A program made the translations under genes and the position numbers. From an uncultured Bacilli bacterium (GTDB taxonomy: Bacteria; Bacillota_I; Bacilli_A; RF39; UBA660), in NCBI GenBank assembly GCA_944363705.1, contig CALVUY010000004.1:1-38015 (forward strand): 38,015 nt of DNA, given 5' to 3'. Within the stretch, counting starts at the first letter, position 1. Every line of letters begins with the position of its first letter. A model generated the notes under the pieces. It saw nothing but the letters and a program-made list of their open reading frames with translations, was not told the DNA's origin and searched no databases. This document shows positions 1,788-31,082 of the stretch, in pieces.

Positions 1788-2840
1788 TTAATTATGAAGT
1801 CTTCTATAAGTTAATACACTACCTGCAATTCCTACAGCAGTTAAACCTAAGAATAGTAAGATTCCATCACTTGTTTCAGGATTTTCTTCATTACTAACTT
1901 CTTCTGTTTCTTCTGTAACATCAGTTACTGGTGTTAATTCTTCAAGAACTAAATTACCATCAGCATCAGTTGTAATATTATAATCATCAGTTACATCCTC
2001 ATTAACTGCCTTATCATAAATTGCATAATCACCTTTATCAGCAGCAGAGTTTAATGTTGCATTGGTAATATTAAAACTACTAAAATCTGGATTAGTACTA
2101 TCAATTTGATGCCTAATAGCAGAATTTTCTACTGATGTAAACGTTCCACCCGTTACAGTAGCAGACCCTAAGTTATCTAAAGCGAAAGTTTTTTGACTAG
2201 TAAAAGTACCATTTGTAATTGTAATAGCAGTATTTTCATTATTTTTAATAGCATCTCGTACGGCTTCAAAAGTGCCTCCATTAATTGTCATAGTTGGTAA
2301 ATCTGCACTTAATTCATTGTATTTAATATTACCAATCAATGAAGTAGTTTGAGAATTAGTTGTAAAGACACCTCCATTAATTGTAAGGTTAATACCCTCA
2401 TTTCTTACTGCATAAGTATCTGTACTTGTTGTAAAGTTACCACTTTCAATTATTAATGTTCCATAATTAGTAATAGGACCATAAGTAGATTGTGCTACAT
2501 TAGTTACAGTACCAGTACCTACACTATCCATAATAGTTAAAACTCCACCTTCATTTACCTTAATCGCTTCACAAGGGGCTGTTTGATTATCATGAAGATA
2601 ATTAGTTAAAGTAAATCCAGCTAAATCTAGGGTGACTGTTTGACCTGCTAAAACTTCAAAATCTTCATCAGCATCACCTGTTAGAGTAACCTTATAATTA
2701 TTTTCGCCTAAATCATCCACTGTAACATTACTACCAGCATACTCTACATTATCTACAGTAGTAGCTTCTACGCTCATCATTGGAATAAAGGCACAACATC
2801 CAACAATAATCATAGATAAAATTGTTTTTAAGTTTTTCAT
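1788..2840 (-). CDS. Sortase-anchored surface protein with pectate-lyase-like repeats
   Basis: A 350-residue exported protein. Signal peptide at residues 1-26 (MKNLKTILSMIIVGCCAF, then MMSVEA). Residues 30-290 show recurring short units such as LTINGGVFTT, MTINGGTFEA, ITITNGTFTS and ATVTGGTFTS, spaced about 20-25 residues apart, typical of a right-handed parallel beta-helix. The acidic linker (EETEEVSNEE) leads to NPETSDG, a hydrophobic segment and YRRLHN, identical in layout to the 773-1690 protein. It is probably displayed on the cell wall by the sortase at 3790-4644. RBS GAGGAGG precedes the ATG. A role in adhesion or carbohydrate contact is a guess from the fold only. Confidence 0.8.
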   Translation of the reverse strand: MKNLKTILSMIIVGCCAFIPMMSVEATTVDNVEYAGSNVTVDDLGENNYKVTLTGDADEDFEVLAGQTVTLDLAGFTLTNYLHDNQTAPCEAIKVNEGGVLTIMDSVGTGTVTNVAQSTYGPITNYGTLIIESGNFTTSTDTYAVRNEGINLTINGGVFTTNSQTTSLIGNIKYNELSADLPTMTINGGTFEAVRDAIKNNENTAITITNGTFTSQKTFALDNLGSATVTGGTFTSVENSAIRHQIDSTNPDFSSFNITNATLNSAADKGDYAIYDKAVNEDVTDDYNITTDADGNLVLEELTPVTDVTEETEEVSNEENPETSDGILLFLGLTAVGIAGSVLTYRRLHN

Positions 2841-2965: not shown

Positions 2966-3451
2966 TTAATTTTCTTCTTTTTTTAGTTCTTTCAATAATA
3001 TTCCTTTAATATTATCAACATCAGGGAAAATCAAATTTACACCCTTTTTCTTTAACTTAAATATTTTATTTACTTTTTCTAGTATTATGCGTCTTGTTTC
3101 GGATGGTACTTGTAACGCTTTACCTTTAACTGTATCAATATGATCTATAAATTTAGCAATTATAGGAAACATATTTTGGATTAAAAATGCATGTTTTCTA
3201 CCTCTATAATTACCAATTACAATAGTGTCACATTTTTTATATTTTTCTATCTTTTTTTCTATTATTTCCTCATATTTATCTGTTTTACTACTCATAGGAA
3301 CAAACCATAATATTTCACTATTATCTAGTTTTATACAAAAATAATTTGGTCGTGTAAAATTACCTTCGTGATTTTTCATTAGTTTTTCATCTCTAACAAC
3401 TTTAAAATATTCTTCCTTAATATGATAAACATATCCTTCTTTAATTTTCAT
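2966..3451 (-). CDS. Type III toxin-antitoxin endoribonuclease, ToxN/AbiQ superfamily, CptN-like
   Basis: A 161-residue basic protein. It has the segments usual in CptIN-family toxins: an N-terminal GYVYHIKEEYFKVV, a central CDTIVIGNYRG, AFLIQNMFPI, then FIDHIDTVKG and a C-terminal Lys-rich helix with GVNLIFPDVDNIKG. Known members are sequence-specific RNases held inactive by a repeated pseudoknot RNA encoded just upstream. Here exactly such an array (3605-3696), a promoter and an intervening terminator precede the gene, so the assignment rests on both sequence and locus layout. The ATG at 3451 has AGAGGTG upstream, and the start region can be folded into an RNA hairpin. Alternative: another ToxN-type family (ToxIN or TenpIN). 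The superfamily call is firmer than the subfamily. Confidence 0.8.
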   Translation of the reverse strand: MKIKEGYVYHIKEEYFKVVRDEKLMKNHEGNFTRPNYFCIKLDNSEILWFVPMSSKTDKYEEIIEKKIEKYKKCDTIVIGNYRGRKHAFLIQNMFPIIAKFIDHIDTVKGKALQVPSETRRIILEKVNKIFKLKKKGVNLIFPDVDNIKGILLKELKKEEN

Positions 3452-3452
3452 A

Positions 3453-3514
3453 TGACGAACACCTCTGCTTAATATTTGTAACTTAAGTGTACTATATAAA
3501 ATATACGTTCGTCA
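3453..3514 (-). promoter_or_regulatory. Inverted repeat in the toxin leader, possible start-site occlusion
   Basis: TGACGAAC (3453-3460) and GTTCGTCA (3507-3514) are a perfect 8-bp inverted repeat. On the toxin mRNA the downstream arm lies between the ribosome binding site (AGAGGTG) and the ATG, so pairing would hide the start. TTGACG in the upstream arm could also act as a -35 element for a toxin-proximal promoter, which I cannot exclude. Confidence 0.45.
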
Positions 3515-3559
3515 ATACATAAATTCGATTTTTTAAAATCTATAACTTTCTTATAAACA

Positions 3560-3593
3560 AAAATTCCCTATTCATTATAGAATAAGGAATTTT
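3560..3593 (-). terminator. Leaky-type terminator between antitoxin RNA and toxin gene
   Basis: AAAATTCC-c-TATTC pairs with GAATA-a-GGAATTTT around a six-base loop: 13 pairs with one mismatch, followed on the minus strand by TTTTTGTTT. In type III systems a terminator at this place sets the excess of antitoxin RNA over toxin mRNA. Confidence 0.85.
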
Positions 3594-3604
3594 AATTTAC
3601 TATA

Positions 3605-3696
3605 TGGTATGATTTATTACTCGCACCAACCACAAGCGAGAACATTTGACAAAATGGTATGATTTATTACTCGCGCCAACCACAAGCGAGAACATT
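3605..3696 (-). ncRNA. Type III antitoxin RNA array (CptI-like), two units
   Basis: There are two nearly identical units of about 42 bases (3605-3646 and 3655-3696), 50 bases apart, with a single substitution inside the unit (A/G at 3625 and 3675). Read on the minus strand each has CTCGC...GCGAG (five pairs) with the loop element UGGU able to pair with ACCA downstream of the stem, i.e. an H-type pseudoknot as in ToxI/CptI antitoxins. A consensus promoter lies immediately upstream, and a terminator and the toxin gene lie downstream, all on the same strand. A second related array lies at 25043-25136. Confidence 0.8.
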
Positions 3697-3708
3697 TACT
3701 TGATATTA

Positions 3709-3737
3709 ATTATATACTAAATATCTTAAGATGTCAA
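3709..3737 (-). promoter_or_regulatory. Sigma-A promoter of the type III toxin-antitoxin locus
   Basis: On the minus strand TTGACA (3737-3732) and TATAAT (3714-3709) are separated by exactly 17 bases. Both hexamers match the consensus fully. The expected start near 3702 is only a few bases before the first antitoxin unit. Confidence 0.85.
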
Positions 3738-15260: not shown

Positions 15261-16046
15261 TTTAATTCCTCCTCTATTATATTAGGGAGTATACAACTAG
15301 CTCCCTTAATCTCTATATTTTTAGGGCTAACTCCTAATAAATATTTCTTAGTAATTAAATTATCATCTATCCTTAATTCCTCTATTTCTATGCATCTAAG
15401 TAAACTATTAGAATCTACTGTTTTAAAGGGTACTAAAATAGATTCTTCTAAACTAAGATTAATTTCACTAGAATTAATAAGAATAACTCCCCTTCTCTTA
15501 TAAGGATCTTTAATATTATTACCTGTATCTAAGAATCCTAACGTATTAATAGTACCTTTTTTACACCTAATAGAGACACTATGAAGTAGTTCTCTTTTTT
15601 TCTTCTCATTTTTCATCATTTTATGATATAGATAAAAGATTATAGGACTACTTATTAAGATAATTATTAAGTTTAAACTAGTCCCATCATGAATAAAGAT
15701 AAAGCCTTTTTGTTTATAACTAAACTGATTATTAAAAAAATAGATAAGCCCTCCTAAGATAATACTATTGCCATAAAGACTCTTTATAAGAGAAAAAAAT
15801 AATTCCTTAGATGTTATTTTAAAGCCAACAAAAATCATAATAATACTTATTACTACTTTAAAGAGAAATAAAGAAAAATTATTTAAGGGTAGGAACAAAA
15901 GAAATGTACTAAGACTTCCCAGAAATGAAGATATAAGTAATCTTCTTTTTTTAGAAAAGACTTTACACTCTATACTAACTGTCATTAAAAGGAGTAAATC
16001 AAACATGAAATTAATAAAGAATATTAGATCTAAATATACTTTCATT
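15257..16046 (-). CDS. spoIIGA: Sigma-E processing peptidase SpoIIGA
   Basis: A 262-residue membrane protease. It begins MKVYLDLIFFINFMFDLLLL, the well-conserved SpoIIGA start, and has about five membrane segments in residues 5-140. A cytoplasmic aspartic-protease-like domain follows, with FLDTGNNIKDP (active Asp173). It cleaves the pro-sequence of SigE at the sporulation septum. Gene order spoIIGA-sigE is the universal arrangement in spore formers. The start at 16046 is preferred over the upstream ATG at 16120 because homologues begin here and GGTGG lies just upstream. Confidence 0.92.
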
Positions 16047-30851: not shown

Positions 30852-31082
30852 CTCCTAAAATAAAAAATAACTATAACTTAAGGGTGTTAAACTAACACTG
30901 TACCACCTTAATTTATAGTTATTATAACTATCTCATTAATCTTAACGCGAATTAACGCCTATAATTTTGTTATAGGAACTCCTAAGACGAATTCATAAAC
31001 TATTCTTATCTATTTCCACCTACCATAGACTCTCTTTAAAGAAATCATTTACTACTACTTCTTAATCACAGTCATTTCAAGA
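30852..31082 (-). promoter_or_regulatory. T-box leader, phenylalanine specific
   Basis: Read on the minus strand, the leader has the stem I elements AAGTAGTAG, AAGAGAGTC and GGTGGAAATAG, a specifier region GAATTCGTC with TTC (Phe codon), and the T-box AAGGTGGTACAGTG (consensus AGGGTGGTACCGCG). The terminator arm follows (AATAACTATAA pairs with TTATAGTTATT, then T6). UGGU in the antiterminator bulge matches tRNA 3' ACCA. When uncharged tRNA-Phe binds, transcription goes on into HAD-pheS-pheT. The element ends a few bases before the AGGAGG of the HAD gene. Confidence 0.93.

Follow-up and report, generated by a model that had tools for sequence, protein, structure and literature searches.

The window, as the whole stretch of 38,015 nucleotides is called here, carries on its minus strand a type III toxin-antitoxin module of the CptIN family, in which the leader of the toxin gene derives from a transposon. 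The reading favoured below, with a probability of roughly 0.7, is that an IS element was inserted between the antitoxin and the toxin and then eroded, and that the toxin is probably also transcribed from a promoter inherited from this element (P2). With such a promoter of its own, the ratio of antitoxin to toxin would depend on the antitoxin promoter (P1) versus P2, besides the leakiness of the terminator. According to published descriptions, type III operons have one promoter, and terminator leakiness sets the toxin dose. An earlier note on this DNA had followed this rule, taking the terminator to limit toxin read-through; as a description of how the toxin level is set here, this is probably wrong or incomplete, because an IS-derived leader with a promoter-like site intervenes. 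The parts listed in that note stand, and it had overlooked the transposon-derived stretch and the second promoter-like site.

The order of promoter, antitoxin units, terminator and RNase, all on the minus strand, supports the type III assignment well, and the module can now be specified as CptIN. P1 (3709-3737), already noticed as a TTGACA-17-TATAAT consensus promoter, is exact at 12 of 12 positions. It is the sole exact promoter with a spacing of 16-18 in the 38-kb window, and it is placed equally relative to the repeats in related loci within and beyond the genus. It is followed by the two units of the antitoxin gene cptI (3648-3697 and 3598-3647, counted from an AAAUG motif), which are detected as direct repeats at 3646-3695 and 3596-3645 with 92% identity. 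Their pitch of 50 nt is that given before, as is their number; the unit length is nearer 50 nt than the 42 bases proposed, the latter corresponding roughly to the near-identical core. A rho-independent terminator separates the repeats from the toxin (3560-3593; one found by the scan vs a mean of 0.0 in shuffles), and its stem, followed by a T-run, counts 14 pairs in the scan rather than 13. The transposon-derived stretch, from an IS200/IS605-type tnpB left end to the start codon (about 3449-3558), includes P2 (3486-3515) and ends with a ribosome-binding site and start codon, AGAGGTG TTCGTCAT ATG (3449-3466), common to the tnpB leader. The toxin gene cptN (2966-3451) encodes a predicted endoribonuclease of 161 residues.

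This protein scores 169.3 bits against the NCBIfam CptIN equivalog NF047359 (cut-off 90) and matches the solved CptN of Eubacterium rectale (PDB 4RMO) with a phmmer E-value of 2.9e-21. Membership in the CptIN family is therefore firm at the sequence level, and it is an ordinary one, the family being already known. Of the ToxN/CptN-like RNase read earlier from the letters, the CptN half is borne out, and the Pfam ToxN profile (PF13958) stays under its gathering cut-off (22.3 bits vs 25). In the 4RMO alignment, Ser-Ser-Lys of the window protein stands opposite Ser-Ser-Arg, which has been described as the catalytic triad of CptN (PMC4627078). The conservation of the E. rectale adenine-contact residues Asp81, Ser85, and Tyr104 is not obvious in the same alignment, which makes the exact cut site of the window CptN uncertain. 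Carriage of the toxin by phages was rejected, since none of 50,697 phage records contains a match to it, and its plasmid matches are distant only, at 41% identity or less.

The CTCGC/GCGAG stems reported earlier occur in both units. In the RNA, this CUCGC/GCGAG helix and a second one, GUGGU/ACCAU, would form an H-type pseudoknot, a fold that is supported by covariation. When 26 distinct units, drawn from the window, from its paralogs, and from other bacteria, are aligned by sequence, 95.8% of cells can pair vs 77.1% when shuffled, 54 cells are double-changed vs 14.8, and the covariation score is 0.55 vs 0.18. Sliding the partner by one to three columns leaves a pairing of only 31-48%. Both helices covary, stem 2 being variable at all five pairs. 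Most related loci also have two units, and the units are unlike between toxin types. An Rfam search over the repeats yields nothing near the gathering score, nor any CptI match for clear paralogs of the module. An AAAU motif is found at every unit junction, with a spacing of ~50 nt, which fits a processing into single units by analogy with E. rectale CptIN, where the RNA has been found by experiment to be cut into single units that inhibit the toxin (PMC4627078).

The module sits between a sortase gene (Pfam PF04203; 3790-4665, minus strand), located upstream, and presumed sortase substrates. The latter, at 773-1690 and 1788-2840 (minus strand), are proteins without a Pfam match that resemble sortase substrates by their C-terminal ends, NPETSDGILLFLGL. 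The same sortase end is found upstream of at least one cptIN locus of another genome (L009). Farther away, the window harbors a T-box leader (30877-31078, minus strand; Rfam RF00230, 114.5 bits). The host, described earlier as a spore-former, may be one, since its genome has Spo0A.

The stretch of about 95 nt that separates the terminator from the cptN start is a repeat of the host genome. Used as a query (3545-3452), it matches 11 other places, with E-values from 6e-21 to 4e-8. The matches (6e-21, 5e-19, 6e-18, and weaker ones) are dispersed, several lie at contig ends, as expected for a repeat, and two of the 11 are other cptN genes. The intact loci mostly lead to tnpB as the next gene, the best-scoring ones among them, and these tnpB products carry the Pfam domains OrfB_IS605 and Cas12f1-like_TNB. 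A full IS element aligns with the window from 3563 to 3431 (76% identity over 133 nt, E 1.7e-20), a segment that spans its left end and extends slightly beyond the tnpB start codon. The homology sets in where the cptI terminator has its T-run, and other copies of the element likewise follow terminator-like T-runs. In tnpB copies the ribosome-binding and start region reads GGGTTCGTCATATGAAAAT or GAGGTGTTCGGATTATG, and the window type has such a tnpB-like site, unlike the GGGGGTG of other cptN types. All five type-A loci carry the same fusion of leader and cptN. The derivation of the toxin leader from an IS is, for the window type, firm as a matter of homology. Neither tnpB nor a right end is found near the window locus. 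An 8-nt inverted repeat seen by eye in the leader, TGACGAAC/GTTCGTCA, was discarded, as it is broken in some close relatives.

Of 35 genomes of the genus, 30 carry the left end, often in multiple copies, and it is almost confined to this genus among 146 genomes of the order. Another genome of the genus (L067) provides a further case of insertion at this place. There, a tnpB element that ends with its right end immediately precedes a cptN gene with P2, and along some 480 nt its DNA is 90% identical to a copy from the host genome; the contig begins within tnpB and does not cover the far side of the element. Some other copies are unusual. One in the host genome (L090, G000 C11:24554) joins the left end to a right-end-like stretch without tnpB, upstream of a gene reading as tyrosyl-tRNA synthetase, and is perhaps a small non-autonomous copy. 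The stretch that follows its left end had been taken by eye for a T-box, which finds no Rfam support; it resembles the IS right end. In L084, a group II intron (2725-2943; Rfam RF02005, 146.7 bits) is located close behind a tnpB with an interrupted reading frame. Within the window, a weak match that the IS query gives with its end (15835-15879; 78% over 46 nt, E 0.001) is possibly due to chance.

The host genome (1.46 Mb in 112 contigs) has five cptN genes, the four others being 47-51% identical to that of the window. Two of its modules form a tandem pair (L003 and L056, G000 C36:12230-13548); repeats, a terminator, and a P2-like site accompany each of them. These paralogs are likely orthogonal, since published CptI RNAs give no cross-protection (PMC4627078). 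Matches to cptN are present in 24 of 60 related genomes, all of the same genus, and the toxin type of the window in five. Several copies in the genus (L016, L017, L023, L074, and G012:C32) contain in-frame stops, indicating that the toxin genes are decaying in some genomes. Loci outside the genus lack the IS-derived stretch, and their start codon is close behind the terminator; the median distance from P1 to the ATG is 291 nt with the stretch vs 200 nt outside the genus. The nearest toxins beyond the genus are 78-79% identical and also lack the P2-bearing stretch. A maximum-likelihood tree was computed for 63 toxins. The five of the window type cluster in it with clostridial toxins without P2 (support 99/96), L038 being the nearest relative (99/94), and the other genus types with P2 stand apart from this clade (100/98). 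The presence of P2 requires at least four changes on the tree. This placement implies that the element was acquired by the window type independently of the other genus types, barring repeated losses outside the genus.

P2 (TTGACG-18-TACACT) agrees with the promoter consensus at 9 of 12 positions, a grade of site that AT-rich DNA often contains (on average 3.4 when 401 bases are shuffled). This weak match is one ground for regarding the IS-derived stretch as a neutral scar in a canonical CptIN module, the toxin being expressed solely by terminator read-through from P1. The other is the published rule, according to which type III operons are bicistronic and transcribed from a single promoter (PMC5086642). 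Against a neutral scar, P2 is retained in diverged toxin types with TTGAC and TA-A-T preserved, and its 42-nt core is 75% identical between types vs 52% in the 30 nt upstream and 58% in the leader, for the 12 of 14 representatives in which the search pattern recovered the core. Such conservation fits selection on a promoter; recent common descent from a transposon would likewise raise the core identity. The repeated gain or retention of the element on the toxin tree also speaks against a neutral scar, which is considered rather unlikely, and P2 is likely to be active as a promoter. A LexA/SOS operator at P2 was rejected as a canonical SOS box, CGAAC-N4-GTTYG being found nowhere in the genome. 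Among open papers, type III systems with a second promoter gave one hit, and none of ten titles was relevant to a tnpB promoter associated with a toxin-antitoxin system, which is weak evidence of absence.

The transfer might also have run the other way, a cptN gene having supplied the tnpB promoter of the transposon. Several toxin types of the genus indeed have an old and diverged core, and the IS left end is almost restricted to that genus. For the window type, however, homology spans the whole left end and includes the ribosome-binding site of the tnpB type, not the GGGGGTG leader, and the IS is far more widespread (30 of 35 genomes) than the window type (five), making this direction improbable. 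In the other toxin types of the genus, similarity is mainly that of the promoter core, so that the transfer may have run in either direction. As for the presence of the left end upstream of cptN, it might suggest that the toxin gene is a passenger that replaced tnpB between the two transposon ends. A passenger would be followed by a right end, of which there is no significant match around 2700-2966, and the antitoxin has its own promoter outside the left end; cptN as transposon cargo was thus dismissed, and very little credence is given to it.

The preferred reading, an IS leader inserted and then eroded, can be put as a series of proposed steps. Transcription from P1 would yield a short RNA with two pseudoknot units, ending at the terminator. 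CptN would cut this RNA at the A-rich junctions (AAAU), and the resulting single units would hold CptN inactive. Most likely, an IS200/IS605 element of the tnpB type landed in the terminator T-run of cptI, and its body would later have been lost, the left end, promoter, ribosome-binding site, and start region remaining fused to cptN. The toxin would then probably have its own promoter, P2, in addition to read-through. More tentatively, it may be suggested that type III toxins of this genus took the tnpB transposon promoter at least twice, their transcription being thereby uncoupled from that of the antitoxin and perhaps controlled together with that of the transposon's nuclease gene.

Among known systems, E. 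rectale CptIN (PDB 4RMO; PMC4627078) has a homologous toxin with a Ser-Ser-[Arg/Lys] motif in the alignment, and two tandem antitoxin units with an H-type pseudoknot and an A-rich second loop. It differs by its units of 45 nt vs about 50 in the window, by its stem sequences, by adenine-contact residues that are not obviously conserved in the window toxin, and by the lack of both an IS-derived stretch and a further promoter-like site ahead of the toxin. Closer still are the clostridial loci L038 and L039, from MAGs, with 78-79% toxin identity, near-identical antitoxin units, P1, and terminator; their toxin, in contrast, starts directly behind the terminator, with neither P2 nor the IS left end. 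The ToxIN and TenpIN families of type III systems share the order of promoter, repeats, terminator, and endoribonuclease, whereas the below-cut-off Pfam ToxN score and the NCBIfam match place the window module in CptIN. IS200/IS605-family tnpB elements (IS1341-like, with tnpB only) are the source of the toxin leader, their tnpB and right end being absent at the window locus. A second, working toxin promoter would set the module apart from type III operons as described, with a single promoter. If true, the toxin dose could be set independently of the antitoxin, and transposon promoters could rewire toxin-antitoxin regulation, as they would apparently have done in two separate toxin clades of a single genus.
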